Assembly (NCBI GenBank): GCA_905221615.1
Contig: CAJNDT010005390.1
Coordinates: 1-64,000, forward strand
DNA length: 64,000 bases
Reading direction: 5' to 3'
Source of the DNA: Symbiodinium sp. CCMP2592
Lineage: Eukaryota > Sar > Dinophyceae > Suessiales > Symbiodiniaceae
Shown: piece after piece, positions 650-20,560 of the stretch
Numbering within the stretch: position 1 is the first letter of the stretch
How the letters are laid out: each line of letters begins with the position of its first letter
Position numbers and translations under genes: made by a program
The notes under the pieces: model-generated
Seen by the model: only the letters and a program-made list of their open reading frames with translations
Database searches by the model: none
Told to the model about the DNA's origin: nothing

Positions 650-784
650 GCAAGCGAATCGACAAGGACGTTTATGATCAAAAGCAAGCACAGCAAACCA
701 CTAAACCCTACTAAACCCTGAGAAGTTTTACTGGCACTCTGCCTTTGGCACTCTGCCTTTCAAAAAATTGATCACAACCTGACG
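650..784 (+). repeat. Direct repeat, copy 1 of 2
   Basis: Starts with GCAAGCGAATCGACAAGGA and runs through CAGCAAACCACTAAACCCTA, a doubled 13-bp element 14 bp apart, and ACAACCTGAC. The same order of words returns at 1215-1350 with only scattered changes, about 565 bp away. The doubled 13-mer was therefore already present when the unit was copied. Confidence 0.85.
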
Positions 785-1214
785 TAATTGCTATAATACT
801 CGATTCGGCCTCCCAAGTTGCAGAGGAGGACACTCGGGGGCCGACCTCGGACCCAGCCAGCACGTTAGCCCATGTCACACCGGGCCTCCCCTCCGAACCG
901 CCCGAGCGATGCTCACGCAGAGACTAAGGAGCTCCCAGCCGGCACGTTAGCCCATGTGTCCGACTGTCATACAGAGAGCACAGAGCTCTCTGCGTTGGCC
1001 TCAAGAGCTCGAAAAACTCGATGCAGCGGCCCCCCAGCACCCGGCCAGCGGTGCTGCAGCACACAACTCGAACTGAATCTCGAAAGAAGCGTTCGGCGGA
1101 AGTGCACCGTGGGTAAGGGCAGGAGACTTGTAAGCTGCCCTGCACTACGTTCTTCCCTCAGAGCCCTGTGCGAGACACAGCGAGTCCTGGGTAGCGGCCA
1201 CACTCCACATGCCG

Positions 1215-1350
1215 GCAAGCGAATCGACAAGGATTTTCTGATCAACAGCAAGCGCAGCAAACCACTAAACCCTACTAAACCCTTAGAAGTTTTACTGGCA
1301 CTCTGCCTTTGGCACTCTGCCTTTCATAAATATTAAATGCACAACCTGAC
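1215..1350 (+). repeat. Direct repeat, copy 2 of 2
   Basis: Second copy of the unit at 650-784, in the same orientation, again carrying the 13-bp element twice (1297 and 1311) with the same 14-bp spacing. The main differences lie in the AT-rich stretch between the 13-mers and the ACAACCTGAC end. Confidence 0.85.
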
Positions 1351-1807
1351 TTAAGCATCCCTTTCTGTAACGGCCTCCCCGGCGTCTTTGCAAAGACGAA
1401 CGTGCTCTGACAGTCATGCGGACCGGAGACTTAGGCCACCCCCATTCGGCCGAGATATGGGGTCACCCCGCTCTGCCATGGGGATATGAGGCTCTCAACG
1501 ACCACTAGCAGCTGCAAGCATTTGCCCGCGCTATGCTTATGTCGCCCTCTGCTCGCAAAGAAGCAGGACGTCGTGGTCGTCGTGGTGCCATCCCAGAGTT
1601 CGCAGCGGATACTTCTGCCCCCGACATTACCTTCTGCTGGACTTGGCCAACAGCTTGGCGCAAGAGCCGAACGTCGGGTCGGCCATGGCAAGAGCGGTAG
1701 TCGAATTTAGTTCGACTGTGGCGCGGGTACGTGGCATCAAATGAATGTGTGACAAAGAATTCACTAATCTTAAACAACTGGTTAACAAAACAACATTCTA
1801 CTCCATA

Positions 1808-2860
1808 TCAAATCACCAAGGAACCATGCAGGTCGCTGCGTTCGTCCTGGTTCTTGAGAATGAGGGCTTGTCGCAAAGAGGTCCCACTTTTTGCAGCGCC
1901 CTCTAGCAACTTCCAGATGCTTTTGATGTCCACAGTCTTTTTCAATGGAACACGCTTGCCCAGAAGTGCCCTGCGAGACGTCACAGGCACACCAGCATCA
2001 TGTACACTCAAGTAGTGCCCAATGACATACACCTGGAGGCCGGCTGACAATGTCTCGGACAGACACTCATGTATGTGCATGAAGGCATTCACGACTGTCT
2101 TGGCAAATCCATGAGCCTGCCCCGACGGTTGAAGCGCTCTGTGTTTTTTTGCCATGGTTGCAAAGGCGATGATGTCGTAGATGCTAGTTTCAACCTCCTC
2201 CCAATCTCGTGGCACTCTGCCTTCAGATTCATCTCGGAGAGATGAAGACAGCGTCCTTGCATTGAACATAGATTCCCAAAGCTGACGCAAAGATCGGGAC
2301 GTGTTGCCTGCCAGCGACTTCATCATCCAAGCGGCAAAGCCTGACACCAACCCAGCTGATTGAAGAAACCATGACACTCTGCCTTCATCCAACTGCATGA
2401 CCAGAGGCTCATCACTGATAGTTTCACACACACGTACCATAGCATCATTCAGTTTTCTCTTGTACCATTCCCTGTGGGCGTCTGTCCTTGTGTCGAAGGA
2501 TGCTTGCAACATGAATCGGGCCAAGGCTGTGGAAGATGCCACATCCTCCTGCACAGCATCAGGGTTTGGCACTCTGCCTTTTTGACTTTGCACATGTGAC
2601 CCCCAGTTCGCAGCCAAGGGGGTCTTCCTGAGAAGATCACTGAAGAAGTTGTACCATTTGTGGTACTGTCGACGTTCTGAGCCGTTCCTGTTGCTCTCAT
2701 CGAAAAACAAGTCCAGACGCCACCACAGTTCGCCCTGTGAGAGCCAAGCTGCTCTCGCTGGCAGTTTTGCATCATTTTCCAAGTTAAGCAATTGCCCATC
2801 ACGGAGCAATAGCATGACCCACAGTTTCAGAAGCATCACCGAAATCCTCCAAAGCAACAC
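1808..2860 (-). CDS. Unrecognised 350-aa protein
   Basis: An uninterrupted frame of 350 codons. I recognise no family. The first ~45 residues are hydrophobic and of low quality, and the minus-strand sequence offers a CTCACAG|G acceptor just before GELWWRLDLFFDES, so the real coding exon may begin there rather than at the first Met. The rest is a normal-looking soluble protein with charged helices and Trp-containing segments (HKWYNFFSDLL, HREWYKRKLNDAMVRV, SIWKLLEGAAKSG). The 13-bp element lies in frame three times, reading KGRVPNPD, DEGRVSWF (diverged) and SEGRVPRD. It is the last minus-strand gene before the left edge, about 600 bp from the methyltransferase-like gene. Being a downstream part of that gene cannot be excluded. 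Confidence 0.5.
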   Translation of the reverse strand: MLLWRISVMLLKLWVMLLLRDGQLLNLENDAKLPARAAWLSQGELWWRLDLFFDESNRNGSERRQYHKWYNFFSDLLRKTPLAANWGSHVQSQKGRVPNPDAVQEDVASSTALARFMLQASFDTRTDAHREWYKRKLNDAMVRVCETISDEPLVMQLDEGRVSWFLQSAGLVSGFAAWMMKSLAGNTSRSLRQLWESMFNARTLSSSLRDESEGRVPRDWEEVETSIYDIIAFATMAKKHRALQPSGQAHGFAKTVVNAFMHIHECLSETLSAGLQVYVIGHYLSVHDAGVPVTSRRALLGKRVPLKKTVDIKSIWKLLEGAAKSGTSLRQALILKNQDERSDLHGSLVI

Positions 2861-3464
2861 TGTACTTGAATCTTACTAAATACTGACACACACCTGCACT
2901 TGTGTAACAAGCCCCAGTTCACAACACATTGAATTCTTAAGAAATCAACCCAAAGACTCACGATGACATGTCAGCAGCCACATCATGTCACTCGAACTTG
3001 AGACAGGAAACTATCGCAGATGGCACTGAACTGACAACCACATGGAATGATTAACACAGGCCACCGATGCCTGCAACTGGAGGTCGAGACACCAGCAAGG
3101 TCATTGCCACCTGCACGACAGCAGCATACGAACTGAGACAATACCGACAAACACATCTGATCACGGAGTGACTGAAGCTCTCTACATTTTCATTGCACAG
3201 CTGCACCAGCTCGGATCACTCAGATCCTTACACGAGGCGGCGAGGATTTTCCTCGGCACCTCGTGGAGGGAACGGACGGGGTCCAGGGCTCAACCCAGTC
3301 CCAACATTGGAAAGCAGAATACCAACAAGACAGAATGTCGAAAGATGAAGCAAGCTCATTTAACTATAGAGAATTATGGCACTCTGCCTTATTGGCACTC
3401 TGCCTTCAGCTACAATTCATGTTGGGACATCCCTCATCATATGAAAGGCCACAGCCTTGCCGAA
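2861..3464. other. Intergenic stretch
   Basis: About 600 bp between two minus-strand genes. It contains two copies of the 13-bp element 16 bp apart (3378 and 3394), a spacing that is not a multiple of three, in contrast to copies inside coding frames. No other feature is visible. Confidence 0.5.
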
Positions 3465-4574
3465 CTACGGGGTGTACTCCTCTGACACCTGAAGATCTTC
3501 AGGACGACCGGTGAACTTCTCACCATCTCGATCAACGCAACCAGCACTTCCTCTGACATGGGAAGGATAGCTGAGCCGCATACCATTGATGTGCTGACAG
3601 TTGCTCCACAGTTGAAGCGGTTTCAGGATGGGCTGGCCGAAGGCACCACCATAGGTTTTGACCTTCATAGCCTGGATCATTCCCATGACACGATCGACGA
3701 GGGGAATGTCGAACAGCATGCTGGAGCAAGGCTGCTCGATCACAAACCGGTTGTCATTCAAAGCCGCGAGCAAAGTCAACAGCAGCGTCACATACATGAA
3801 CCGATTGCCTTCTTGGCATGCCAGCGATCGCTCAGGTTCTCCCATCCAGTCATTGGCAATGGACCTTCCAGTACTGTATTTACAGAGTTGGACGAAGGAA
3901 GAGCATGGAGTTACAAACCACAACAGGCCGTGTTTGTGTGTTTGACACACAGCATTGACAGCCAGGCGAAGTCCTCTCACAGAAAGAATATCATGATCTG
4001 TGCCGTACCTGATGTCCAAGGCTAGCCCCTGCCAGCCAGCACGGAGCATCTCCCGACTGAGGTTGCCCTGCCCTGCAAAGATCTCCAGGAAGTGGAACCT
4101 GGAACTCTGCCTTATGTTCCGCTTCCAATGACAAAAGTTGATGAGGAATCTCATCTGTTTCTTCCATGGCCACGAAGTCATGATGGGAAAAGTTTCTGAT
4201 AACATTTGTTGCCAGATTGATATCATCCAGGAAAACCCACTGGCTTCAAGAATCACATCATAGTTGCACTCAGGCAGAACTTCATAAGGACCTTCATGAT
4301 GGAACTCCAGAAGCGACGGGTCAACTTCGCAAAGGCGCAGAACATCCTGTCCTCTCGAAATGGCCAAGAATCTCTTCTCCAGTTCGATGTTTGCATCAAA
4401 CTGCCGCCGAATGTCTGCTAACAGTCTTCTTCTTGTTTCAGCCGGGTCATCTGCTGCTGCAGACATGGCACTCCGAATTGCACTTTGCATGGCACTCTGT
4501 CCTATCCGCAAGAAAGTGTAACACCTTAACCTCAAGGGTGTTCGAATTAACAACGTAATTGTGAACCAGCACAT
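3465..4574 (-). CDS. Cytosine-C5 DNA methyltransferase-like protein
   Basis: A 369-aa frame whose middle carries a class-I methyltransferase fold signature: FLEIFAGQG at residues 162-170 (SAM-binding FxGxG motif), ALDIRYGTDHD at 185-195 (the acidic end of strand 2), VTPCSSF at 221-227 (matches the Pro-Cys catalytic loop of C5-cytosine methyltransferases) and FVIEQPCSS at 277-285 (position of the ENV/ENP motif, here EQP). Length and order fit a compact Dcm-like domain, but I see no target-recognition domain, and the ENV change makes activity uncertain. In dinoflagellates such PC-containing proteins are often linked to retroelements; here no reverse transcriptase is adjacent. The first ~36 residues are weak, and a start at Met37 (MSAAADDPAE) is plausible. 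Diverged 13-bp elements lie in frame at RQSS (155-158) and near GQSA (26-28). Confidence 0.55.
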   Translation of the reverse strand: MCWFTITLLIRTPLRLRCYTFLRIGQSAMQSAIRSAMSAAADDPAETRRRLLADIRRQFDANIELEKRFLAISRGQDVLRLCEVDPSLLEFHHEGPYEVLPECNYDVILEASGFSWMISIWQQMLSETFPIMTSWPWKKQMRFLINFCHWKRNIRQSSRFHFLEIFAGQGNLSREMLRAGWQGLALDIRYGTDHDILSVRGLRLAVNAVCQTHKHGLLWFVTPCSSFVQLCKYSTGRSIANDWMGEPERSLACQEGNRFMYVTLLLTLLAALNDNRFVIEQPCSSMLFDIPLVDRVMGMIQAMKVKTYGGAFGQPILKPLQLWSNCQHINGMRLSYPSHVRGSAGCVDRDGEKFTGRPEDLQVSEEYTP

Positions 4575-4873
4575 TCAGCAGTTGACACACTTGTGAGTCG
4601 ATTGATCCATCACAAGACAAGGATGAGACAGACATGATGCAATCACTCGTTGAAATTCACATGTGGCATAGTTGTTGCAGACCATGACTTCATGCTCAAG
4701 CAATCAAATACAGCCCTGCCAGACCCTCACTCGATTCTCGTTTTTCTGGTACCGCACACAGCAGTCCATCCATCGTCCTCGACGATTCCGAGGCCACCGA
4801 GGTGGCAGACACAAGCATTCTTGGCACTCTGCCTTCTGTAAAGTTTCCAAGCTGTCATTGAAAGACATAAACC

Positions 4874-5884
4874 TTAGGGCCACCAGAAATCTTCAGGTGG
4901 CTCACAGTCGGAGGGTGGTTCTGAGGAGATATACCCCGATCGACGACCACGAATGCGAAATCCTTTGCCTTCACCTGCAGACTCATACTGATTTGAGTCT
5001 GGGGACGACTGAGCTTCGTCCAGTGCGTCCATCTCCTCATTGTCTGACTCCTCACCTTCCTCCACATCTGAGGGGGCTCCATCATCCGCTGAGCCGCGCT
5101 GACTCCAGTCCGGGTCTTCTTCTGAGATGTTCCCATAATCAATACCCAAACGACCCCGCCCTCCAAGCTCACCAAGACGAACATCTCGAACACCTTCCTC
5201 AATCACATCTGAGTCTGAGGCGTGAATCTCACCTTCGGAACGAGCTGGCCCAGTCAACCAGGCATCCGGGCGAGATTCCAAACGAAAAAACATTTGACCA
5301 CGAACTCCACTTTCGAACTCATCTGGCACTCTGCCTTCCGGCACTCTGCCTTCTGGCACTCTGCCTTCAGTAGCTCCACTGTTGGCATTATTGTTAGGGC
5401 CAGGATAGCCATTTTCAGGCATCGGCCTTGGCGGCACTATTGGTGGCGGGGGGTTGTCTGGAGCATTGAAACACATGGCACAAATTCGCCGTCCCAACTG
5501 CCGACGTTGCATCTCTTCAGGGGTCAAGTTATCAAGGGTGACCAGAACAATGCGGCCCTCCCTAACAGTAACCACATCCGGCTCGAAGTTGATCATGATC
5601 GGGGTCTCCATAATGTCCAACGCTTCTGCCACAGCTTGGGCAATCTCAAACTCATGTCGCGCAGGGGCGGGAGGTCTTGGGCCAGGTGGGTAAGGTGGCC
5701 GATTCACAGGCGGTGGTGGCGGCGGACCCATTTGTGGCCCTGGCACTCTGCCTTCCGCCCCACCACCTTCTTCACCAATGCCATTCACACCGGTTGGCGG
5801 CACTCTACGAGGCCGTCGCTTCGGAGTCCTCACCCCGCCGATCCTCCCCGCTGCTGCCGGTTTGGCCTTCGGTTTCGGTGCCAT
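4874..5884 (-). CDS. Proline-rich protein, function unknown
   Basis: I start the frame at the second Met (MAPKPKAKPAAAGR), because the 11 codons before it look non-coding. Order: a basic N-terminus (about residues 1-30), a Gly/Pro-rich linker with PPPPPVNRPPYPPGPRPP, a folded-looking segment of about 75 residues (ARHEFEIAQAVAEALDIM to RRQLGRRICAMCFNAP), a second proline run, then a long acidic low-complexity tail (DVEEGEESDNEEMDALDEAQ). The 13-bp element appears once before the first proline run and three times in tandem at a 15-bp period (5325, 5340, 5355), giving EGRVPEGRVPEGRVP. The period of three codons keeps the frame. No family is recognised. The upstream region is AT-rich. Confidence 0.5.
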   Translation of the reverse strand: MAPKPKAKPAAAGRIGGVRTPKRRPRRVPPTGVNGIGEEGGGAEGRVPGPQMGPPPPPPVNRPPYPPGPRPPAPARHEFEIAQAVAEALDIMETPIMINFEPDVVTVREGRIVLVTLDNLTPEEMQRRQLGRRICAMCFNAPDNPPPPIVPPRPMPENGYPGPNNNANSGATEGRVPEGRVPEGRVPDEFESGVRGQMFFRLESRPDAWLTGPARSEGEIHASDSDVIEEGVRDVRLGELGGRGRLGIDYGNISEEDPDWSQRGSADDGAPSDVEEGEESDNEEMDALDEAQSSPDSNQYESAGEGKGFRIRGRRSGYISSEPPSDCEPPEDFWWP

Positions 5885-6399
5885 GGTGCTTAACTTTAAA
5901 GATCTTTGATCCAACAAGCTGCAAGCAACTATATGTGTTGGATAGTACGAACAGGTACTAGAAGTTGATTGTCATGTCCGTTTCAATACCACATGCAATA
6001 GGTTCCACTGGACGACACAAGCATTTATGCACATGATCAGTAGATTAACACATATTTGAAGACAGAGTGCTATTAATAGATGATGTAGTTTAATGTTCGA
6101 AAGCAGTATGCCCAATAATAAGTGTATGCATATAATCCATACATATATCTATATATATGTATGTATGTTATACATATACCTAGGTCTATGTGTAAACTTA
6201 CCACACACAGTAACGGTTTAGGGTTTAAAAGAGCTTCAGGGTTTTAGGTTTTAAGGAGGTCCATGGTTTAAAGGTACTTCAAGGCAGAGTGCCACCTAGT
6301 TTATGCTTCATCATAAGATGTGTTGCTACTCGTAGGGATTTGGTTGGGTTAGCTGGACTGTGCCGATTCAATGGGATTCGATATTGTATAACTAGCTCC
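5885..6399. other. AT-rich spacer with telomere-like words and an inverted 13-mer
   Basis: An AT-rich stretch with a TATATA/TGTATG run at about 6145-6175, then GGTTTAGGGTTTAAAAG and GGGTTTTAGGTTTT (6218-6255), which are degenerate telomere-type words. At 6281-6293 the 13-bp element occurs as AAGGCAGAGTGCC on the plus strand, the only exact copy of that orientation I found. Confidence 0.6.
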
Positions 6400-6960
6400 C
6401 AAGATTCAATAAGCTCCAACAAGACTTTTGGGAGGGGATGCTACATGTGTGCAATTGTCTGGTACAGGGTCGGTGTGCCTTCAAAACGTGATGGCCAGAA
6501 CACTAAGATTCAATAAGATTTTTTCGGGTAGTCCACAATCCTGCAAATGTCTTCTAAGATTCAATAAGATTTTTTGGGCGAGCTGGAGGCTGTGTCCCTT
6601 GTAAAACCGATAAGATTCAATAAGATTCAATAAGATTAAATAAGATTCAATAAGATTCAATAAGATTCAATAAGATTCAATAAGATTCAATAAGATTCAA
6701 TAAGATTTTTTCGGGGTAGGCCACAATTGTACAAATGTCTTCTAAGATTCAATAAGATTCAATAAGATTTTTTGGGGCGATCTGGAGTCGTGTCCCTTTT
6801 AAAAATGATGGACCAATAAGTTTCAATAAGATTCAATAAGATTCAATAAGATTCAATAAGATTCAATAAGATTCAATAAGATTTTTCCGGGGCATGCCAC
6901 AAGTGTCACAAATGTCTTCTAAGATTTTGCAGGGCCTGTGGGGCGGTATGGGGATGGTGT
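6400..6960 (+). repeat. 10-bp satellite (AATAAGATTC) in a higher-order array
   Basis: Runs of the 10-bp unit AATAAGATTC occur at about 6611-6706, 6744-6770 and 6818-6880. Between them a longer phrase recurs about four times: AATAAGATTTTTTCGGG, then CCACAA, then AAATGTCTTCTAAGATT, then a GGGCG...GTGTCCCTT segment (starting near 6400, 6506, 6697 and 6873). The array is therefore a higher-order repeat in which the 10-mer expands to different lengths inside each unit. No coding potential is seen. Confidence 0.85.
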
Positions 6961-7382
6961 CCCTTCAAAGGCCATATGTTTTTTTAAACACGGATGCACC
7001 CCATTGCAGACTTCAGTGGTCCTTTGTTGGGTCCCTCCCAACTGGTGTTCTAGGACAGGTTGGATCCTGCCTTTGGCGCGGATTTGTCCACAGGCATCTG
7101 CAGTATCCTTGTGAAATCGACAGACCGCCTGGGATTACAAAGAGACATACATTCCTGATGGCATAATGCAACACAAGGCAACACACAATCATGTCAATAC
7201 ATAATGATCATGGAACACATGTTACAACCCATGGCACTCCGCCTTCAGAAACATGTCTGTGACAATGGCATTGCCACACCTCCAAAATTAATAAGACTCG
7301 AGGCCACATCACCGACAACACATACACATGAGCCAGTTATTGTGGCCCTCTGCCTTGTTACCGAGCCACCTTGTCGACGCAA
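6961..7382. other. Intergenic stretch
   Basis: About 420 bp between the satellite and the 3' end of the RING gene. It contains two diverged 13-bp elements (GGCACTCCGCCTT at 7233 and GGCCCTCTGCCTT at 7343). I see nothing else. Confidence 0.4.
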
Positions 7383-8148
7383 TCAGTCCACCACGGGGTC
7401 GTTGACCTCAGGAGCTTCCTCTTCACGAGTGCGGTCGTCAACGAGTTGAGCTTGTATTTCCTGAACGATTGCGTCCACATCATTAGCATCATCTTCGACA
7501 GGAACAGGGGCATTGCTTCCCGTGGACCCCCTCGGACCCAAAAAGAACCTTGCCATAGAGGCTGAGCTCGCACCCTTGAGAGGGCAAGCGGTGGCCTTGT
7601 TCCGCCCGGTCGACTCACAGTATCGATTGATACATTCGCTGTGAAAGAGGTGGCCACACGATAGCGCTTCCAATTCCTGCATTCCAGGGAAGCAACAGAA
7701 AAAGACACGTCATGTGAGAGGTACTGTTCTGAGGATTAGTGGAATGTACAAACAGGACAGGCACCACTATCAATGGTTCATTAACCAAAGGCAAACGAAA
7801 CCAGCCTGCCTGGCCGGGGTGCATCTCCGAATGGCAAATGACACAGAGGTCCTGGTTCCACCGGTTCGCAGGTCTGCTCGACTCATTCGGAGCATCCTCC
7901 TCCTCCTCCTCAAAGAAGGCACTGTCGTCGGCCTCGCGCTCGACCTCGGCCTCGACCTCGGCCCCGGCCTCGACCTCGGCCCCGGCCGCGGCCATGACCT
8001 CATCATCGACCTCGACTGCGACCTCGTCCTGCGACTCTGTGTTTGGTGCCGTCGCCCTGGCCTTGGACTTGGCCTTGGCTTTCGACTTGCCCTTGGCTTT
8101 TGCTTTGGCTTTCGACTTGGGTGTCGCAAAGGGCACAACGGCATTCAC
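7383..8148 (-). CDS. RING-H2-like zinc finger protein, two exons
   Basis: Exon 1 (8148-7786) encodes a Lys/Ala-rich basic start (KSKAKAKAKGKSKAKAKSKA), an acidic EVEAGAEVEAEVE stretch and the first zinc ligands CVIC (C102, C105). Exon 2 (7676-7383) supplies ELEALSCGHLFHSECINRYC and ACPLK. Joining TTG|GTTAAT at 7786/7785 to TGCAG|GAA at 7677/7676 (a 109-nt GT-AG intron, phase 0) gives C-x2-C ... C-x-H-x2-H-x2-C ... C, a RING-H2 order. The last ligand is odd: CPLK lacks the usual second cysteine. The family acts in ubiquitin transfer or protein binding. The acidic C-terminus ends EVNDPVVD. The start is uncertain: the frame just upstream (8191-9006) may be an earlier exon of the same gene. Confidence 0.65.
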
Positions 8149-8190
8149 GTCAGCACCGGCTGTCGAGTCACTGTTCGTGGAGGTGTCTGG

Positions 8191-9006
8191 CTATGGCAAC
8201 TCAACTGTTTGAGGTGCAGTGGTCACTTCTGCAGGAGGCATGACGATCTCCTGATCGGGCCTGATCTCTGCCTCTGCCGGCGCTAGACCATCGTCATCCC
8301 TGGCAGGAGCATTCGGATCAACTGGCACTCTGCCTTCCACAACCCTCGGCACTCTGTCTTGTTCACTTCCTGCAGCCTGGCTGCCTTCGGTTGCCTGGCT
8401 TGCATTGGAACCCGGAACGGCATGAGGGGAGGCAGGCGGCTGTTGAACCGGCACTCTGCCTTGTTCCCCAGCCGGGCTGCGACCCACAGCCTGGCTTGGA
8501 TTGGAACTAGGAGCAGTCGTTGGCAAAGGACCAGAACGGACCACGTCTGGCACTCTGCCTTCCGACGGCGGAACCGTTGGCGGGGCAGCTGGAGCAGGAC
8601 TCGGATTGAAACTGAGACGTCCCTGCGTCTCAGGGGACTGCCTTGCTCTCGCTCTACGCCTGGCATAGGTCGTGACATCCTCGGTCATCCATGTGGACTG
8701 CCATCCACACTCCAAGGCAACCCTGTCAACAGAATGCTCAGACATATTCACCCCCAGGCCCAGAACCGGTTTGGCTATGCGGTTCCAACTGCTGCTATCG
8801 CAGACGGATTGACGCTTATGGGCATTCGCACATCGCTGACCAAGCAAGCTGTATTTCATATCGACCCTGAGTTCACTGACCTTTGTGGTCGGCTTCAGAT
8901 TGGTCAATATGAAGAGCAGTGGCAGCGCTGTTTGTTGTGGCAGGTCAGCCGTGACCGCAGCATCCCATGCACTATGAACTCGCTCGAGCAGAGCTTTCAC
9001 CTTCAC
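8191..9006 (-). CDS. Pro/Ala-rich protein, possible upstream exon of the RING gene
   Basis: A 271-codon frame with no recognised domain. The N-terminal half (residues about 1-125) has ordinary composition with charged and aromatic residues (MKVKALLERVHSAWDAAVTA, DVTTYARRRARARQS). The C-terminal half is a disordered Pro/Ala/Ser linker. The 13-bp element sits in frame four times, always in the linker, as SEGRVPDV, EQGRVPVQ, EQDRVPRV (diverged) and VEGRVPVD. The frame ends in TAG only 42 bp from the start of the RING ORF, on the same strand. A CGACAG acceptor precedes the RING frame, so one spliced gene is possible; no donor is decisive. Confidence 0.45.
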   Translation of the reverse strand: MKVKALLERVHSAWDAAVTADLPQQTALPLLFILTNLKPTTKVSELRVDMKYSLLGQRCANAHKRQSVCDSSSWNRIAKPVLGLGVNMSEHSVDRVALECGWQSTWMTEDVTTYARRRARARQSPETQGRLSFNPSPAPAAPPTVPPSEGRVPDVVRSGPLPTTAPSSNPSQAVGRSPAGEQGRVPVQQPPASPHAVPGSNASQATEGSQAAGSEQDRVPRVVEGRVPVDPNAPARDDDGLAPAEAEIRPDQEIVMPPAEVTTAPQTVELP

Positions 9007-9066
9007 CTCAGTCAGTAAGGCTTATCTAGGCTTTGTGGGGGGAGGGTTCAGGGATCATTGCTGACC

Positions 9067-12058: not shown

Positions 12059-12868
12059 CTATGGCACTCTGCCTTGCTTTGCCGGCGGGGGACCCATCGG
12101 CTCTGGCACTCTTGGCGGGGGATTCGGCTCGGGATCTGGCACTCTGCCTTGCTTTGCCGGCGGGGGACCCATCGGCTCTGGCACTCTGCCTTGCTTTGCC
12201 GGCGGGGGACCCATCGGCTCTGGCATTCTTGGCCGGGAATTCGGCTCGGGATTCGGATCATCGTCATGCCAGGCATCGTATTCGTCCTGGATGACGGGCA
12301 TTCTGGCCGTTCTGCCCCAGCGATGTTGCTGCTGCTGGTGGCCAGGAGGAGGATGAGCTGGTTGCACCGGGCCCTTGCCAGGAGGAGGATGATCTGGTTG
12401 CACCGGCCCCCTGCCAGGAGGAGGATCTGGTTGCACCCTGCCAGGAGGAAGTGGTTCCCACTCCTGCTGCCAAGGGTGATCAGGCAGAGGCCCAGCATTT
12501 CGCAGCGGTCTTACTGGCACCTGCCACGGAGCAGGAGGCCTCGCCTTTTGCTGAGGCGGTTTATGCAAAGGGGGGCGGGCCCCCCTGGGAGGAGTCCCAT
12601 CAGGATGATGTATTGCTTTGCCTTTGCCTGGCACTCTGCCTTCTACTGGCACTCCTCCTTTCATCCCTTTGGCTTTTGCAGTCGCAGATCCAGGGGGATC
12701 CAGGGAGGTGTCGAATCCCAACACTGAGGTGTTGGCGGAGGATTCGGCGGCGCAAGTGCCTGCGGCTGCATTCTGCTCATTACTGCCCTTGTTGCCTCGA
12801 CCCTCATTTGCTGGCATTGTTGCATCAAGTCCAGACCCTGCTGGAACTTTGCTTCCAGATTCTTGCAC
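12059..12868 (-). CDS. Proline-rich repeat protein (exon), frame continues past two TAG codons
   Basis: A frame of low complexity: Gly/Pro-rich text, PPPGRGPVQPDHPPPGKGPV repeats, an acidic patch, then a 14-residue unit EPMGPPPAKQGRVP repeated. The GRVP of each unit is the 13-bp element. The frame stops at TAG 12061-12059, exactly where earlier units have GAG (Glu), and then continues in frame with PMGPPPAKQPPAKRKF until a second TAG at 11920-11918. After that the frame goes on with QDFAKELAEYADDTARG. It overlaps the 3' end of the kinase-like frame by about 200 bp in another phase, so an exon junction or frameshift must lie between 12661 and 12868 if they are one gene. No function is assigned. 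Confidence 0.4.
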   Translation of the reverse strand: MQESGSKVPAGSGLDATMPANEGRGNKGSNEQNAAAGTCAAESSANTSVLGFDTSLDPPGSATAKAKGMKGGVPVEGRVPGKGKAIHHPDGTPPRGARPPLHKPPQQKARPPAPWQVPVRPLRNAGPLPDHPWQQEWEPLPPGRVQPDPPPGRGPVQPDHPPPGKGPVQPAHPPPGHQQQQHRWGRTARMPVIQDEYDAWHDDDPNPEPNSRPRMPEPMGPPPAKQGRVPEPMGPPPAKQGRVPDPEPNPPPRVPEPMGPPPAKQGRVP

Positions 12869-14088
12869 AACTTGTACAGATCGGACACCATTTCACCAAC
12901 TCTCCACTTATTCGGTCCATAGTCCGTTTTGAATTTTTCGCCAGCAGCAAGCATCTTCTTCCAGACCTGTGCCGCGTACTCGGAGACGGTGGCGCTGTGG
13001 TTTGAGGGAATTTGCCAGAAGCTCAGAAAGCAGTTGAGGTGACCCTTCATCTTTTTTGCGGGAACCTCACTAATTGGTAGGCAACCGGCGCAGTCCACCA
13101 AGGCAAACGTCAAATTCTCCGCCCCCACTGGCACTCTGCCTTTGTGGTCCGGCACTCTGCCTCCCATGACAGTAATGTTATTCTCATGGAGGTCCCCCAG
13201 AAGACTCTCTTCCTGCCTAAGGGTATGCATTTGTAGCTTCAAGACAAACTTGAACAGCTTGAAGATGATCAGCATGGTCTCTTTCTCTGGGAACTTGCTT
13301 GGGTCGGAAAACCTCTGGTTGAGGAAGGCTCCCACAGTCGTCCCGTTGCCTTTGGCTTCTGTGACGATCACCGATTTTCTCATCCGCGGTGCCACTACGC
13401 CCGAGGCATGGGTGACCAAGGTTTTCAAGTCAAAAGCGAGCGGGACAGGAAACGATTGCCAGTGGGTTGTGAACATTCGAGATTGCAGAAAACGCCAGTC
13501 AAATTGGTTTCCACACTCTTTTTCATCCTTTGCGAGTGGCCTGTGCAGCTTGACACAGAGGTGCACCTGATCTGTCCGATTATTGAAGTCCAGAGCATCT
13601 TCAGGAATAGAATCCACCAGTCTCAGGGCCTCTGCTGCGACTTCCGGGGCTTTGAGGACTTCGGCACTCTGCCTTTCAGACCGAGGAATCCTGACCTCGC
13701 GCAGAAGCTTCAGAATGTCGACGACCCACGGCTGTGGGATCCTCGCAATCATTGAGTCCCGATTCATTCCATGACCGACGTATTTCCATTCACACTTGCA
13801 CTGTTTGAATCCTTTCCCGCCTCTCACGCGGAATTGCAGGCGGACCTCACCGAAGGCTGTGACATAGTAGTCTAGAGGTTTTTTTTTTTTTTTTGGATAA
13901 TTCGGACCCATCTGCAAGGATCCATCCAGCTGTTGTTCGTAAAACTCACAGGTGATGTTGCCGGCTCGCACATTGGCCCAAAACGTCTGACCAAGCGGAC
14001 TCGTATGCACAGGCGCTGTCATCCTGCGGCACTCTGCCTTGTCCAGCCAGATTGCGGCACTCTGCCTTGTCCAGCCAGATGCAGGCAC
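12661..14088 (-). CDS. Protein-kinase-like fold protein
   Basis: A 475-codon frame. Motifs of the kinase-like superfamily are visible: GDLHENN at residues 298-304 (the catalytic-loop pattern of phosphotransferases, H-x-D-L-H-x2-N with G for the first H) and LVDCAG at 330-335 (the metal-binding DFG position, here DCAG). Upstream, VTEAKGNGTTVGAFLNQRF resembles the end of a small kinase lobe. The domain before it is unrecognised. Two 13-bp elements (RVPDHKGRVP, residues 311-320) sit exactly between the two motifs; others read TRQSA, KAECR and ERQSA. A run of 16 A on the coding strand (residues 65-70, PKKKKK) makes the N-terminal frame sensitive to length errors. The C-terminus is proline-rich. 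Activity is uncertain because DFG is altered. Confidence 0.5.
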   Translation of the reverse strand: MPASGWTRQSAAIWLDKAECRRMTAPVHTSPLGQTFWANVRAGNITCEFYEQQLDGSLQMGPNYPKKKKKPLDYYVTAFGEVRLQFRVRGGKGFKQCKCEWKYVGHGMNRDSMIARIPQPWVVDILKLLREVRIPRSERQSAEVLKAPEVAAEALRLVDSIPEDALDFNNRTDQVHLCVKLHRPLAKDEKECGNQFDWRFLQSRMFTTHWQSFPVPLAFDLKTLVTHASGVVAPRMRKSVIVTEAKGNGTTVGAFLNQRFSDPSKFPEKETMLIIFKLFKFVLKLQMHTLRQEESLLGDLHENNITVMGGRVPDHKGRVPVGAENLTFALVDCAGCLPISEVPAKKMKGHLNCFLSFWQIPSNHSATVSEYAAQVWKKMLAAGEKFKTDYGPNKWRVGEMVSDLYKLCKNLEAKFQQGLDLMQQCQQMRVEATRAVMSRMQPQALAPPNPPPTPQCWDSTPPWIPLDLRLQKPKG

Positions 14089-14269
14089 TCAGCCTTCTCA
14101 GTCCAGCTCAAGGCACTCTGCAAAGAATGGCGCGGCGGCACTCTGCCTTATAATGTCGAAATGATATACTACCTCTGACGTCAATGTGTTGTTAGATTAT
14201 AGTTACTAGTATTTGACACAATTTAAATTATATCAACTATATTTTGATATTATGCTCACATTGACATTA

Positions 14270-14690
14270 AATATCATGCATATGCCATCATTCAAGGACC
14301 ACGACTCACTTTACTTTGAGCAACTCCATCGACAGAATAATCATGACATGACACTTTTATTGAAGCAGCAGCTACACGGAGTTTAACTTAATTGAGGGGC
14401 CAGACAGACTCAGCATGATCGGGAGCTTAGCACACGAATGAAACCTAATTCAAGGGCTGTGTTGATATTCAAATCTGCCATATGCCATGATTCAAGGACC
14501 ACTGCAGCAACATTTGAAAACTGAGCAACCATCATAAGCCATAGGCAAAACAATCATGACATGACACTTCAGAAGCCCGAGAATGCTAAGTTGAATTTGG
14601 CAACGCAGAAGCAGCATGATCGGAAGCTAAGAACAGCACCGATGACCAGCAATCCTGGGGTCTGGAGACGCCAGCTGACGGCCAAAACTT
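14270..14690 (+). repeat. Diverged ~200-bp tandem repeat in an intergenic region
   Basis: CATATGCCATCATTCAAGGACCAC (about 14278), AATCATGACATGACACTT (about 14337) and CAGCATGATCGGGAGCTTAG (about 14412) recur in the same order near 14480, 14549 and 14612. This indicates two direct units of about 200 bp with many substitutions. The surrounding 14.15-15.0 kb shows no supported gene. Confidence 0.7.
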
Positions 14691-15148
14691 GCATGGTCAC
14701 TTTCATTCATACTCAGACTCTCTCAGCACAGTCGCAAACCCAACACATCCAACAGAACTCAGAAGTGCTCGGTCTTCAGAAGTCTCAGCACTCACAGTTT
14801 TGCTTCTGCAGCAAGCAATGCTCTTCTGGAGGCACTACTCTGACAGCGACGAGGCCTTCTCCAAAACACTCCCAACTTTGATCATGACTTGTTGGTTTGC
14901 CTGCACCACAAACAAATAACCTGTTGCTGTGCGAAAGGCAGGCAGAAGTCCACATGAGCAGACATCGGCACTGAAAAACTTGAGAAGAGTCAGTCGACGA
15001 AGCCTGACACACCTGGCACTCTGCCTTCGTCACTGTCCTGGCCTGTAAATTAAATTGATGTTGGAATTTGCCACTCACTGAATGGTCCAATTCTGGGCAC
15101 TCTGCCTTTGGCACTCTGCCTTTTAAGGCACTCTGCCCTTCTTTTTTC

Positions 15149-16325
15149 TCACGATTCGCCGTCCATCATCAGGCTGTTTTCTTGCACAATAGCAGGCTCG
15201 AACTCGTTGTAATCCTCCTCATCGTCCACACGCTCTTCATTCCAGGCCTCCGGATCATCTTCGTCGTAACCGAATCTCACCATGGTCGTGGTCCACAAGA
15301 GTTGCTCACCTTCGCGGACTTCCCCTTCCCACAGCGTCAAATTCTCAGCCCCCCGCGCCCAGCCCTGATGACATGCATAGAGCCATCTTCTCTCCGTCAT
15401 CACTTGCATGCCTGCACCGGTGAGCTCCAGCTTCAGGTAAAGTGGCGGTGCCTGTTTATCGATCCTGAACTGAGATCATGTTGAAGTTGCTACTTGATTC
15501 TAGTCAGTTTTAATTATTAAGATCCGTAGATATAAGATAATAAATAAATGTAGCGTCGAAGCATGGCTTGCATATGAGTGGCCATCTAATGCTGTCTGGC
15601 CACCATTGGTAGCGTTCAAGGGCCAACTGGGCCGTGGGGCGCAAGGACCAGTGCGGATGGTTTTTGGTCTCCGAGGAACCGGGTTGCGCCCAAGCGCTGA
15701 TGCCGTTCCCTTTCAAGAAGTCCCAGCGAATCTGCAGGGGGACATCCAGTCAAGCAGTAAGAAACAGTCACAATCAACACATGCTATGATTATCATCAAA
15801 CACACTGCCCACTGCCTGCAAAACGTCCTCCACGCACATGAAGTATGTGTGAAGGGTCTGGTTGGGGTCTTGCATCGGGGTCTTGCCCTTCTTTCCCTTG
15901 CCCTTGCCAAGATCGCCCTTGCTCGCGCTGGCACTCTGCCCTGTGGCACTCTGCCCTGTGGCACTCTGCCCTGTGGCAGTCTGCCCTGGCTTTCCTGCTC
16001 CCTTCCCGACCTGACTTGTTCTTTGGGCTTGAGCGTTGTTCAATGAGTTGGTCAGCTGCCAATTTGAAAACTCTTGCAGCTGAGTGCGGTGGCGGCCTGC
16101 CCCTGTGTTTTCCATGGCGGATAATGACTTGCCCACTGCACAATTGGGCCAAGGGCACTCTGCCTTACCTGAACCAGACTGCTGCAACAGCACAAGTAGG
16201 CAAAAATGAGCACTCATTACAATCACCGGAGACTGACTGTTAAAGTCACATTTGCACCCACTGAGTCGCCGGCTGGATTCACTCATCCAATCGCCCCAGC
16301 GGCCCTGATCACCATGTCGGCACAA
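15149..16325 (-). CDS. Gly/Lys/Gln-rich multi-exon protein, function unknown
   Basis: Three minus-strand exons look like one gene. Exon A (16325 to about 15813 or 15804) encodes RGRWGDWMSESSRR, a GKGAGKPGQ linker with GQSATGQSATGQSA (four 15-bp copies of a diverged 13-mer), then a folded-looking QTLHTYFMCVEDVLQA. Exon B starts at 15731 after CCCCCTGCAG and reads IRWDFLKGNGISAWAQ, then LRPTAQLALERYQWWPDSI. Donors GTGGGC (15812) or GTGTTT (15803) are both phase 0 and join it in frame (an intron of 81 or 72 nt). Exon C (15409-15149) reads TERRWLYACHQGWARGAEN and ends in an acidic tail (DDPEAWNEERVDDEED). The B-C junction is not resolved. No family is recognised. Confidence 0.45.
15930..15989 (+). 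repeat. Four tandem 15-bp units derived from the 13-bp element
   Basis: Units GGCACTCTGCCCTGT start at 15930, 15945, 15960 and 15975 (the last with GGCAGT). The variant CTGCCCT replaces CTGCCTT in all of them, so one diverged element was amplified locally. On the coding strand they give repeated GQSAT, and the three-codon period keeps the frame. Confidence 0.85.
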
Positions 16326-16630
16326 CCGACAAAGGAACTGACAGTTTCCACAACCGAGACGGGCATGATCTCACTTTCTTTTTAAGCTCAGTCAGTAACA
16401 CCGGCAGCCAGGTTTAAACGCACGAATTAAGCTGTGACTGCCAGCTGAAAGTGGGAATGTAACTATTAGCCTTTTCAAGGTAAGGACTGTGTTTCACTTC
16501 CAGCCAGCAGTCCAGTGTCGGGTCCAGGACTCTCTGGCTGGGCCAGTGTCGGGACACAAATTTCGACGGCTCAGAATCATTCATTGGAGCAGAACTGTTT
16601 GACCATGGACTTCGGGTTCAGTGTCGATGA
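16326..16630. other. Short intergenic stretch
   Basis: About 300 bp between two minus-strand genes. I see a GCCAGTGTCGGG word twice (around 16510 and 16540) and nothing else of note. Confidence 0.35.
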
Positions 16631-17929
16631 TCAACTGTACGTGTGCAGCTCATCCTGCATTTCCAGCAGTGCTTCAATCATGTACTCACGATCCCGGAAT
16701 GGAGCATAGTAGGCTCGGTGGTTGATCCACCTGACAATGGCTTGTTCCATGGTCATCGAGGCAAAGGCCATGACTAGGACACAATAAGCAGCACAGGTCC
16801 TGTTAATGCCACCGTAGCAATGGACAAGCACACGAATTGGCCTCTTCTTGCCTCCACGCTTCCGACCACCTCCCTGAAGCTTCATCGCCTCCAACAAAGC
16901 AAGAGCATTACCGAGCTCACCAGGGAATGTCTCATCGGCCACCTTCAAGGCACTCTGCCTTCCATCGGCACTCTGCCTTCCATCAGCGGCTCTTCCGAAC
17001 AGGCTGCCCATGTCACTTCCCTTGCTGAAGCCCTTGTCATAGGAGCAGCCATAGCCAAATGAGCCCTTCGTCGATGCCTTCTGGCTTTGCATGTGATTGG
17101 AAACCTGACAGGGGCCGCTGTAGCCCTTGCTGATTGTCTTGCCCTTGCCCCTGCCGCCATTGGCCTTGCCCATCATTTTGCCCTTGATGGCACTCTGCCT
17201 TTGACTCTGGCTGAACTCCTCTGCTGAGCGCTGCCAGCACATCATAATCTTTCTGAAATCTGAAATGAGGCGGCGCCAAATGGTCTTGAACTCATGACTT
17301 CTTTGTTCAGCATCAAAGTCATTGGCATGTGTTTGATCCCAGCCACCATACCGAAGATGTGCAGTGCCAAACGGTCCACAATTCGCCAAATACTGATACC
17401 AGTCCCATGGCTCAAAATTCCGAGGTCTGTCATCTGCATTCATAGAGATGACAATGTCAGGCTTGACCCGGAGCTGGTCATATCGGATCGGGCAACCAAT
17501 ACTGCCAACAAACAGTTGCCACTGGGGATGGTCGTAAATCAAAACATCATCCATGGGCCACGTCTCGACATCATGCTGGCATGGCCGAGGTGGCGGGATC
17601 GACCCAGGCAGCACATCTGTCTGGCCGGTCCATGCTTTGTACAACTTCATATCCATATCTCCGAAATCTGAGATGGCCTCAACTGCCAATTTGATTCGTT
17701 GATCCAATTGTGCAGCCCTTTGGATCTTTCGGAGCCCGGTGGTATAGTCGGCAGCTGATCTGCCACAGTGTAAACAATTCCACCGAAGTTGTTGCACGGC
17801 TTCGTTCCAGTAATCACTGCCAAGGTCAATGTGATTGGCCTGATTCTGATGGTCAGCAGCAGAAGTCTGGCACTCTGCCTCGGAACTCCCTGAGCACCTT
17901 GAAACGGTCGTCGGCATCACTGCTTTCAT
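16631..17929 (-). CDS. Dual-specificity phosphatase-like protein with an internal insert
   Basis: A 432-codon frame. The catalytic signature HCYGGINRT (residues 370-378) matches the HC-x5-R-S/T loop of cysteine phosphatases, followed by AAYCVLVMAFASMTMEQAIVRW, the helix after the loop. Upstream, QLFVGSIGCPIRYDQLRVKP (residues 138-157) followed by DIVISMN resembles the first strands of a DSP domain (LFLGS...L...I..V+N). The two parts are separated by about 200 residues, including a Gly/Lys-rich low-complexity insert (about 236-365) holding three in-frame 13-bp elements (QRQSAIK, DGRQSADGRQSALK). A CLHC pair lies at 52-55. An Asp for the general acid is not obvious. The start Met lies inside a tandem repeat unit shared with 18768. 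Likely role: phosphatase or phosphatase-like scaffold. Confidence 0.65.
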   Translation of the reverse strand: MKAVMPTTVSRCSGSSEAECQTSAADHQNQANHIDLGSDYWNEAVQQLRWNCLHCGRSAADYTTGLRKIQRAAQLDQRIKLAVEAISDFGDMDMKLYKAWTGQTDVLPGSIPPPRPCQHDVETWPMDDVLIYDHPQWQLFVGSIGCPIRYDQLRVKPDIVISMNADDRPRNFEPWDWYQYLANCGPFGTAHLRYGGWDQTHANDFDAEQRSHEFKTIWRRLISDFRKIMMCWQRSAEEFSQSQRQSAIKGKMMGKANGGRGKGKTISKGYSGPCQVSNHMQSQKASTKGSFGYGCSYDKGFSKGSDMGSLFGRAADGRQSADGRQSALKVADETFPGELGNALALLEAMKLQGGGRKRGGKKRPIRVLVHCYGGINRTCAAYCVLVMAFASMTMEQAIVRWINHRAYYAPFRDREYMIEALLEMQDELHTYS

Positions 17930-18376
17930 CGAGCACCCAATTGTCCAACGATTAAAACATTAACAGTGACTAATGCATCACTATACAGTACATTAACCAA
18001 TGATATGTAACATTGTGTTACTACTGTTACATCAGTATGAATGAATCACTTGATTATCTGGCCGGCAGATGTCGATCATGTATGGTGCAAGGCAACTCAC
18101 TGACAGACTATGCAGGCAGGCAGGCAGGCAGCCAGCCTCGGAGACAGCAGGGTCCTGAGGACGTCACTGCCACCCGGCACTGTGTAGTCAGCATGTCATG
18201 CTGGGTAACCTTTTGGAATCCAAGTTGCGCACACTACCGCTGAGGTCTCCAATCGGACAGTCTAGCTCTGCTGGCTAGATCGTCGAATTCAAAATCCTCT
18301 AAGCACACGCAAACCCGGCACTCTGCCTTCCCCAACATCCGTAATGCGGTCTCGGAGGCTGTACAAACACGATGAA

Positions 18377-18718
18377 TCACTGATTCATCATTGACGACAG
18401 AGCTTCGTCTCGCACGTCATTGTAATATAAAATTCCTGGCACTCTGCCTTCACTGTAATCCTGCATAAATCTCGGAAAGAGTACGTGCAGGATCATATCA
18501 TTGATATGCCAGTCTACTTGCAAGACATGCCCACGCTCTTCAGAATTCAGAAAGAACCACAATGTCGAAAAGGACTCCTCTAGCAGCGCGTCGAAATAAA
18601 TCACATAATCATCGTAGTCACTGTCCATGATCGAGGCCACAGTGCTTGCACGCTCATCGGCAACCAGAATCCAGTCCGAGTCCAGAGACTCACTGTCACT
18701 GCACGACATCGACGACAT
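18377..18718 (-). CDS. Small acidic protein, tandem paralogue A
   Basis: A 113-codon frame starting MSSMSCSDSESLDSDWILV. It has an acidic Ser/Asp-rich N-terminus, then a compact segment FDALLEESFSTLWFFLNSEERGHVLQVDWHIND followed by LFPRFMQDY. Its partner at 19231-19569 keeps the same plan with many amino-acid changes but no frame breaks, which suggests both are or were under protein-level constraint. The 13-bp element reads SEGRVPGILYYN here and QGRVPGILYFN in the partner, so insertion preceded duplication. About 50 bp upstream of the start (GCCGGCTTGCAGGGGGGCCT) are identical in both units and may hold the promoter. No family is recognised. Confidence 0.55.
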   Translation of the reverse strand: MSSMSCSDSESLDSDWILVADERASTVASIMDSDYDDYVIYFDALLEESFSTLWFFLNSEERGHVLQVDWHINDMILHVLFPRFMQDYSEGRVPGILYYNDVRDEALSSMMNQ

Positions 18719-19230
18719 CTGCCGGCTTGCAGGGGGGCCTACTACGACTTAGACTAGAGACAGAGCAGGTCGTCGGCATCACTGCTTTCATCGAGCACAC
18801 AATTGTCCAACGATTAAAACATTAACAGTGACTAATGCATCACTATATAGTACATTAATCAATGATATGTAACATTTTGTTACTACTGTTACATCAGTAT
18901 GCATGAATCGCTTGATTCTCTGGCCGGCAGATGTCGATCATGTATGGTGCAAGTCAACTCACTGACAGACTATGCAGGCAGGCAGCCAGCCTCGGAGACA
19001 GCAGGGTCCTGAGGACATCACTGCCACCCGGCACTGTGTAGTCAGCATGTCATGCTGGGTAACCGTTTTGAATCCAAGTTGCGCACACTACCGCTGAGGT
19101 CTCAAATCGGACAGTCTAGCTCTGCTGGCTAGATCGTCGAATTCAAAATCCCCTAAACACACGCAAACCCGGCACTCTGCCTTCCCCAAGATCCGTGATA
19201 CTGTCGCGGAGGCTGTACAAACACGACAAA

Positions 19231-19569
19231 TCATTGATTCAGTGACGACAGCCATTCGTCTGTCACATTGAAATATAAAATTCCTGGCACTCTGCCTTGC
19301 CTAAAATCCCGCAAAAGTCTCGGAAACAGTACGAACATGATCTGTTCATTGATATGGAAGGCTGCTCGAAAGACTTGCCCACGCTCTTTAGAATCCAGAA
19401 ACATCCACAATGTCGAAAAGGACTCCTCTAGCATCTCGTCGAACGGAATCACATAATCATCGTCGTCAGCACTGTCCGCGACCGAGCCCGCAGTACTTGC
19501 ACCCTCATCGTCAACCAGAACCCAGTCCGAGCCCACAGACTCACTGTCACTCCACGACATCGACGACAT
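19231..19569 (-). CDS. Small acidic protein, tandem paralogue B
   Basis: A 112-codon frame, MSSMSWSDSESVGSDWVLVD, paralogous to 18377-18718. Conserved core: FDEMLEESFSTLWMFLDSKE, RGQVF, then FVLFPRLLRDF and GRVPGILYFN. The Asp/Glu-rich N-terminus differs in length by a codon or so (ADDDDYVIPF versus DYDDYVIYF). No signal peptide or membrane segment is seen. Function is unknown. Confidence 0.55.
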   Translation of the reverse strand: MSSMSWSDSESVGSDWVLVDDEGASTAGSVADSADDDDYVIPFDEMLEESFSTLWMFLDSKERGQVFRAAFHINEQIMFVLFPRLLRDFRQGRVPGILYFNVTDEWLSSLNQ

Positions 19570-19619
19570 CTGCCGGCTTGCAGGGGGGCCTACTACGACT
19601 TAGACTAGAGACAGAGCAG

Positions 19620-20010
19620 CTGTAACACGACTATAGTAGATTACGCAGGGCAACAGCGAGCACAACTGCTGCAGCGGCAAGTTGCGATACATGACACGCT
19701 CACTGACTATGCAAGGCAGCTTGTCCTCTGCGATGGCAGCATGTCCTCAGGATCCTCGTCATGAGCCTCGGTGCCAGGACTGTACCATAATAATGGAAGT
19801 AGCTGAAGCAAGCTGATGCTGAGATCCCAGCAGTTGGCATCCACTTCTCGATGGGCTGGAAGCCGATGAAGACCGATGGGAGAGAAGGAAATGGAAGAGA
19901 AGGCGTTCACTAGGCTTGGATTCAAACCGAACACTTAGACCTGGCCAACGGTGTGGGGAGCAACCCCGATGGGGCAGGGACTTAAGTAAGGCAACCTCGA
20001 GAGGCTCGAC
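19620..20010. other. Intergenic stretch
   Basis: About 390 bp with no supported gene. The end (about 19935-20010) contains CTGGCCAACGGTGT and related words that also occur in the 267-bp repeat that follows. Confidence 0.4.
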
Positions 20011-20560
20011 TGGCACTCTGCCTCTGTCGATCCAAGTCGCAAGGCTCCCTAACTAACGTGACAAGCATGGATGGCCTCCCCTCCTGGTTGGGAGAAAAAT
20101 AAAAAAGCCACAACCACTGGACCACCCCACCCGGCACTTTAGCCCATGTGCCCGGGTGTCATATGCCACTGCCCTGGCACGTTGGCCCCAAGGCGGTCCA
20201 GGTACCATCGACAACACCTGACACCCGGCCAACGGTGTCCACGAACCGAGATGGGCAGTCGATCCGTGTGGGTAAGGTGGCACTCTGCCTCTGTCGATCC
20301 AAGTCGCAAGGCTCCCTAACTAACGTGACAAGCATGGATGGCCTCCCCTCCTGGTTGGGAGAACAAATCAAGCCGCAACCACTGGACCACCCCACCCGGC
20401 ACTTTAGCCCATGTGCCCGGGTGTCATATGCCACTGCCCTGGCACGTTGGCCCCAAGGCGGTCCAGGTACCATCGACTCAGCACCTGACACCCGGCCAAC
20501 GGTGTCCACGAACCGAGATGGGCAGTCGATCCGTGTGGGTAAGGGCAAGGTCTCAAGGCA
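20011..20560 (+). repeat. 267-bp direct tandem repeat
   Basis: Two units start at 20011 and 20278 with TGGCACTCTGCCTCTGTCGA (a diverged 13-bp element) and continue through CAAGGCTCCCTAACTAACGT, CGGCACTTTAGCCCATGTGC, TGGCACGTTGGCCCCAAGGC and CCGTGTGGGTAAGG. They are nearly identical and therefore recent. Similar but more diverged wording (GGCACGTTAGCCCATGTG, GTGGGTAAGGGCA) lies at 0.84-1.2 kb, on the far side of the region that holds the 13-bp elements. Confidence 0.9.

Follow-up and report, generated by a model that had tools for sequence, protein, structure and literature searches.

A 13-bp word that saturates a giant, recently multiplied DNA transposon of Symbiodinium as a possible recognition motif of its family

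Why should a 13-bp word, GGCACTCTGCCTT, fill some 20 kb of a dinoflagellate contig in one orientation, within open reading frames (ORFs) and between them, and then stop? The question is raised by Symbiodinium sp. CCMP2592 (contig CAJNDT010005390.1, assembly GCA_905221615.1), of which positions 1 to 64,000 were analyzed and are called here the window. The word-bearing region is the right part of a giant class II DNA transposon with terminal inverted repeats (TIRs), and the word, which has multiplied as the passenger of this transposon, may serve as a recognition motif of the family.

About 42 exact copies plus near-copies between 0.7 and 20.3 kb, with all but one of the exact copies in the same orientation, and none in the next 43 kb, had been noticed from the letters of the window (hereafter, the sequence-only reading), and the counts bear this out. 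The exact word occurs 43 times, 42 times on the plus strand and once on the minus strand (6281), over a span of 733-19298, and none of 100 dinucleotide shuffles of the window contains it. With up to two mismatches there are 66 copies, 63 in 733-20291 and three beyond, against a chance expectation of 2.75 for the whole window; the remaining 43 kb hold no exact copy. The 42 exact plus-strand copies group into 24 clusters at a cut-off of 200 bp, and the independent events are fewer than the copies because some clusters are segmental duplicates (649-787/1214-1354, 17906-18768/18768-19619, and 20011-20277/20278-20544). Relative to a hand-chosen set of 16 minus-strand stop-to-stop ORFs, 38 of the 61 plus-strand copies with at most two mismatches lie inside and 23 outside. 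The 38 copies are split 22/12/4 among three frames, giving GRVP-, RQSA-, and KAEC-type peptides, respectively, in agreement with the earlier argument from the use of all frames against selection for a single peptide. Inside ORFs, the distance from one copy to the next is mostly a multiple of three (15, 18, 21, or 24 bp, with 28 as the single exception); close pairs outside ORFs are separated by 14, 16, 17, or 33 bp.

The sense strand of the word, AAGGCAGAGTGCC, contains a 4-bp stem and a 3-nt loop. For its core, GGCACTCTGCC, the predicted hairpin has an energy of -4.4 kcal/mol as sense RNA and -4.1 kcal/mol as antisense RNA, and three tandem copies reach -19.3 kcal/mol. Across the 63 copies, loop and stem are equally invariant, and the base at position -1 is T in 46. 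The word region matched no known RNA family at the gathering score, no match was found in viral contigs, and a literature search, by the entries it listed, brought up no report of the 13-bp word or of this element; 12 papers containing an 11-mer string of the word as text treat, by their titles, unrelated subjects. At five loci in bacterial metagenome contigs (L001-L005), two nearby copies of the 13-mer lie inside apparent tandem repeats.

The word field stops near 20.3 kb because the transposon ends at 20974. Its right end reads TTAAGGA in the window (20968-20974). Two further copies in the same genome, on contigs C1 and C4, are 97-99% identical to the window over the common parts, and both stop at window position ~20,975; the C4 copy is without about the first 4.1 kb of the part present in the window. 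The left ends of the two copies coincide and, in C1, lie ~7.8 kb to the left of window position 1. The window contig starts inside the transposon, the missing left ~7.8 kb being known from further copies in this genome. In both C1 and C4 the ends are imperfect ~43-bp inverted repeats of each other. Perfect 5-bp direct target-site duplications were found by a scripted check at all 13 end pairs read, for instance, CTGAT in C113 and TAGAA in C305, the duplication length being ambiguous for the insertions in C1 and C198, which sit in simple repeats. The left flank of the window copy lies outside the contig, and the duplications were read at other copies. The inverted-repeat ends and the target duplications identify the unit as a TIR DNA transposon with a composite length of ~28.7 kb. 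Copying through RNA, which the sequence-only reading had considered, is therefore not needed, and the idea that the 20 kb reflect a chimeric contig was dropped after the TIR and the other copies had been found.

In the whole assembly (1.098 Gb, 5383 contigs), to which all genome-wide searches refer, the 24-bp TIR core CCCTTTGCNCCGAACCAGAACCAC has 416 exact matches, and the reversed pattern none. The 100 listed of these 416 ends, on contigs up to C824, include 22 end pairs, eight of which are 4.8-5.2 kb long, five 11-24 kb, and nine 29-49 kb, the last class including C1 with its internal tandem duplication. A 39-base site of the element is found at 258 places within three mismatches, and all 100 listed of the 258 are exact. 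The part of the transposon missing from the window encodes a 962-amino-acid protein, the candidate transposase, which has DDE-like motifs by eye and no Pfam or PDB match; all 47 loci scored for it are fully open and listed as 100% identical, and 41 of these have the full score. When P0025, a homologue of the protein encoded at 1808-2872, was used as the query, 366 first-look candidates and 114 scored loci were obtained, all 57-58% identical to the query and 113 without internal stops. Pieces of four transposon copies differ by 0.5-1.5%. Given this low divergence, the open ORFs, and the identity of the 962-amino-acid protein, the transposon is recently active, with a recent burst to several hundred copies.

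Genome-wide, the word is present 8349 times in forward and 7894 times in reverse orientation, 16,243 in total, whereas the reversed word occurs 11 times (7 and 4). A count of both orientations over the genome had been proposed as a check of the one-sided field; the abundance stands out against the control, and the near-even strands are what is expected of an element inserted in both directions. With 258-366 element copies, the 16,243 words amount to 44-63 per copy, and there are 53 exact words in the C4 copy and 96 in the tandemly duplicated C1 copy. In the first dense place, on C1, the words are spaced as in the window. In 60-kb stretches of C1 and of C4, every exact word lies between the TIRs, seven other sampled stretches (66 kb in total) are free of the exact word, and C2 and C3 (4.19 Mb) are missing from the listings of both words and TIRs, which run past them in contig order. 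Site 10049 of the window is listed at 57 exact places on contigs up to C824. A TIR pair encloses 15 of them, another 39 are no more than 40 kb away from an exact TIR, and three are without one; the distance to the right TIR, where this is in reach, is 10.2-12.7 kb at 41 of 52 places, compared with 10.9 kb in the window. The window, C1, and C4 show the word in 59 contexts, and a context outside these, with AA directly after the word, is found a single time in the genome. Since this single case stands beside 16,243 copies, the word spreads inside the family and not as a free micro-element; with one novel context tested, its multiplication within the family is that of a passenger of the transposon, and some copies may lie elsewhere. 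Thus the mobility proposed from the sequence alone is confirmed, with the ~29-kb transposon as the mobile unit, and the self-spreading micro-element is not.

The left-end words sit in ~94-bp repeats, and seven of them in the C1 copy are oriented opposite to the rest, so that the words read inward from both transposon ends. In a comparison of pieces of four copies, 39 of 45 word sites are exact in every covering copy and the other six differ by point mutations; the empty sites that insertion of the word itself had led one to seek did not appear at any of the 45 sites in this partial coverage. Element copies on C469 and C91 are bounded by two right-type TIRs, and site 10049 is present in C469 twice, in opposite orientation. 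On these grounds, inverted-duplication forms of the transposon probably exist.

Within the family the word varies less than its surroundings. Over the four copies, six of 755 motif columns are polymorphic against 459 of 20,177 other columns (p 0.0036, about three times lower), in a test based on six changes and on sites with at least one copy within one mismatch. The ratio is much alike in coding columns (3/447 against 222/11,676) and noncoding columns (3/307 against 236/8,487), and motif columns shifted by 15-60 bp are 1.6-3.6% polymorphic, compared with 0.8% unshifted. The short derivative on C51 (5.1 kb) has two exact words at its left end, within a stretch 82-89% like that of the full element. 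The left-end site of this type was found at 45 places within three mismatches of a 36-mer, in eight haplotypes, with the word intact in 44 and the flanks differing from the commonest haplotype in 24; six of the 45 places lie in the listed ~5-kb pairs.

The word also looks constrained as nucleic acid. When the 16 ORFs were searched by peptide, 30 of 31 occurrences of GRV, RQSA, or AEC proved to use the word's own codons, the sole exception being a GRV one base off the word. Codon usage in the word-bearing ORFs is flat, and the word's codons would be met by chance at ~0.03 (GRV), 0.009 (RQSA), and 0.09 (AEC) per site. Eight sites (2211, 2373, 2568, 13130, 13663, 16949/16967, 17189, and 17869) were judged from alignments to be common to homologues of ~45-75% amino acid identity, and at all eight the window DNA, where codon retention was read, encodes GRV, RQSA, or AEC with the codons of the word, the homologues being known as proteins alone. 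In internal duplicates of the window that are ~90% identical, the word is exact in both.

Over longer times the word did, to judge from the protein homologues, gain or lose copies inside the transposon, and tandem duplication clearly contributes to the gain. A kinase-like loop has two copies in the window, one in P0011-15 and P0018, and none in P0016 and P0017; the RQSA site has one, two, or three copies across homologues, and a double GRVP in P0024-26 and P0030 corresponds to a single one in the window. The lineage-specific KKAECQVDNFG and LLEGRVPWEDN involve no net length change relative to some homologues in the protein alignments. In 32 interrelated homologues GRVP occurs 67 times, RQSA 34 times, and KAEC 10 times, against 0.07-0.23 expected from composition. 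These 111 sense-frame peptides compare with five antisense-frame peptides, all of them GTLP within a conserved CSGTLPV stretch of P0012-15 and P0018 that, on our own reading, is not derived from the word; ALCL, HSAF, and HSAL are absent.

What the word does for the transposon we infer from this pattern. A dyad word that belongs to one family, is dense and oriented, is kept at the left end, and is less variable than its surroundings suggests a binding site, and we put the probability that it is a family-specific recognition motif of the giant (~29-kb), recently multiplied DNA transposon at about 0.5. An element-encoded DNA-binding protein would read the word as a "self" tag. The left-end copies would provide subterminal binding sites, and dense binding along the whole element, provided by those of the interior, could promote transcription or transposition, or oppose host silencing. 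Interior copies may be born by local duplication and by gain at new sites, and selection for density would retain them, including those in exons, where the tandem spacing is mostly a multiple of three. The statement that selection wrote a strand-specific self-recognition word through exons in three frames and through noncoding DNA, one DNA- or RNA-binding factor recognizing the ~29-kb element or its transcripts, we hold tentatively, a little short of even odds.

Several known systems resemble this element in part. According to PMC2613891, CACTA elements have repeated subterminal motifs that are bound by TNPA and act as cis-determinants. The CACTA elements En/Spm and Tgm share with the present one a large TIR structure and a short dyad-symmetric motif that is repeated subterminally (here at the left end). 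Retention of the motif in short derivatives may be a further resemblance, C51 having it at the left end and nowhere in the right 2.5 kb. Here, however, the termini are TC...GA instead of CACTA, the target duplication is 5 bp instead of 3 bp, and the word runs on through the interior and the ORFs. Pfam gave no TNP2 or TNPA match for the element ORFs. The VANC-binding motifs of Arabidopsis VANDAL elements are described in PMC5735166 as short, family-specific, dense, in one orientation, and partly multiplied by tandem repeat formation, those of VANDAL21 being mainly noncoding. The 13-bp word is likewise dense, family-specific, and in the same orientation, but 38 of its 61 copies are in ORFs, and the element ORFs have no Mutator-type match in Pfam. 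The target duplication of Mutator-like elements is 9-11 bp, in contrast to 5 bp here. Maverick/Polinton elements, which PMC11071213 reports for the genome of Breviolum minutum, are also giant multigene DNA elements in dinoflagellates. Among 22 element ORFs scanned, there was no match to DNA polymerase B, retroviral-type integrase, or capsid (E limits 0.1, 1, and 0.001). Mavericks have a target duplication of 6 bp, again differing from the 5 bp seen here. The Neisseria DNA uptake sequence and the Rickettsia palindromic elements are short words that are scattered, in several frames, through genes and spacers, whereas the present word belongs to one transposon family, in a eukaryote, and is strongly oriented. 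Compared with the CACTA and VANC motifs, it saturates exons too, almost always in one sense, and we know of no transposon tag that has colonized its own coding sequence like this.

A number of observations count against a recognition motif. The protein that would bind the word is a putative one, and the 962-amino-acid candidate transposase matches nothing in Pfam or PDB. A DNA-binding site does not need the fixed orientation seen in 42 of 43 copies here and in the 111 sense-frame against five antisense-frame peptides of the relatives. The VANDAL21 motif differs from the word in being mainly noncoding. Site 733 is substituted in the C1 copy. No word with up to two mismatches is present in the 2.5 kb next to the right end of the C51 derivative, so that the right end can do without it. 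The left-end site taken alone is not significant (p 0.11), and the constraint test is based on six changes.

Because the word keeps a fixed sense relative to the ORFs, the main rival is a tag at the RNA level, in which a hairpin of the sense strand, AAGGCAGAGUGCC, marks transcripts for export, stability, or processing by an element-encoded or host RNA-binding protein. The orientation of 42 of 43 exact copies, the predicted hairpin energies, and the excess of sense-frame peptides in the 32 relatives, where none of the five antisense cases seems word-derived, all favor such a tag. We nevertheless consider it unlikely, given the seven oppositely oriented left-end copies of the C1 element, the two words kept at the left end of C51 (ORFs are listed for its other half), and the almost equal folding of the antisense strand. 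In RNA hairpins the loop mostly varies more than the stem, which is not the case among the 63 copies. A neutral relic, that is, an early expansion of the word in an ancestor with a uniformity that reflects the recent burst alone, would suit the 0.5-1.5% divergence and the invariant 962-amino-acid protein, but is improbable, as matched flanks of these copies vary more than the word does, the window sites shared at ~45-75% protein identity keep its codons, and so do 30 of 31 independently found peptides despite flat codon usage.

A selfish micro-element that hitch-hikes and can insert itself at any place, inside the transposon or not, would account for the varying copy number at homologous sites (0, 1, 2, or 3) and perhaps for the prevalent T at -1. 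Flanking repeats were sought at 25 isolated copies, taken from 60 with a core within one mismatch after removal of three segmental duplicates and of copies within 45 bp of another, and short repeats in a few registers gave uncorrected p values of 0.004-0.009; these signals are in differing registers and fail correction for the 81 tests (27 registers and three lengths). Target duplications of the word itself were accordingly not accepted, the signal over all copies coming largely from tandem copies and the best p for isolated copies being 0.004 before correction. The lack of empty sites among 45 sites in pieces of four copies, the single AA context, and the two lineage-specific peptides without net length change relative to some homologues also speak against such an element, which we regard as quite improbable. 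Selection for a peptide module (GRVP, RQSA, KAEC) would explain the many occurrences of these peptides in the related homologues, but the three frames yield unrelated peptides, 23 of 61 copies are outside the chosen ORFs, and the codons are as fixed as the residues; the three frames and the noncoding copies refute it as the sole cause, and we give it hardly any credence.

The family described here is that of a giant TIR transposon of a dinoflagellate genome, with 5-kb derivatives beside numerous intact and near-identical copies, and its 16,243 identical words, in one family and in nearly one orientation within the element, make self-marking by an element a countable matter. If a bound factor is found, it would allow dinoflagellate chromatin or RNA to be addressed in a sequence-specific way and would exemplify a nucleic-acid signal that overrides codon choice in three frames.

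Table 1. Features of the transposon part present in the window
Feature	Coordinates	Strand	Basis or content
Right ~21 kb of the ~29-kb TIR DNA transposon	1..20974	.	Copies on C1 and C4 (same genome); target-site duplications seen at further copies
Field of the 13-bp word GGCACTCTGCCTT	733..20291	+	42 exact plus-strand copies up to 19298, plus near-copies
ORF, function unassigned	1808..2872	-	Three word copies (2211, 2373, 2568); 14 homologues
Long ORF	3465..4574	-	Pfam negative at E 0.1; RQSA frame with two near-copies
ORF	4874..5971	-	Four copies in the GRVP frame, three in a 15-bp tandem
Sole exact copy in opposite orientation	6281..6293	-	A+T-rich intergenic stretch with telomere-like TTTAGGG
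RING-finger-like ORF	7383..7709	-	zf-RING_2, E 5.5e-05, below curated cut-off; zf-C3HC4, E 0.00017, just above curated cut-off
ORF	8191..9021	-	Three exact copies and one near-copy, all in the GRVP frame
ORF	10212..11381	-	Single copy in the GRVP frame (11080)
ORF, kinase-like by eye (GDLHENNITV...VDCAG)	12661..14088	-	Word in each of the three frames; Pfam negative at E 0.1
Phosphatase-like ORF	16631..17959	-	Weak CDKN3/DSPc matches below curated cut-offs; copies in the RQSA and AEC frames
Tandem duplication within the transposon (~860 bp, identity 90%)	17906..19619	.	Both word copies exact in both units
Right TIR (GATCTAAACCC...GCAAAGGGTTAAGGA)	20932..20974	-	Corresponds to the inverted left end of the C1 and C4 copies, apart from a few differences

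All genes of the region had been assigned to the minus strand from the sequence alone. Protein searches support this for three ORFs (1808-2872, 12661-14088, and 16631-17959), with 14, 8, and 10 homologous proteins, respectively, two of the homologues being labelled Symbiodinium. Except for the RING-like ORF, the remaining weak Pfam matches of the ORFs are insufficient to name functions. An array of the decamer ATAAGATTCA at 6501-6926 is also present, on the opposite strand, in the otherwise different interior of the 5-kb derivative on C51.

Beyond the transposon, a gag-like minus-strand ORF with a weak CCHC-knuckle match is located at 20968-22236. As the right end lies at the C-terminal end of this ORF, the transposon may have inserted into a retroelement. 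Two large direct copies of a stretch with several genes (23033-32610 and 51014-60984), 77-97% identical by piece, contain MAM, RCC1, Kelch, and ephrin-receptor-like domains, and each is followed by an array of a 41-bp satellite resembling TTTCGAGCGGTTTGCTCCTTGTTCTCAAATTCTCTAGTC (33413-36176 and 61097-63459). Tandem MAM units of ~950 bp each occupy 46973-51400. Finally, a ubiquitin-like tandem ORF at 40080-40874 adjoins a 0.6-kb repeat of the ATACAT type.

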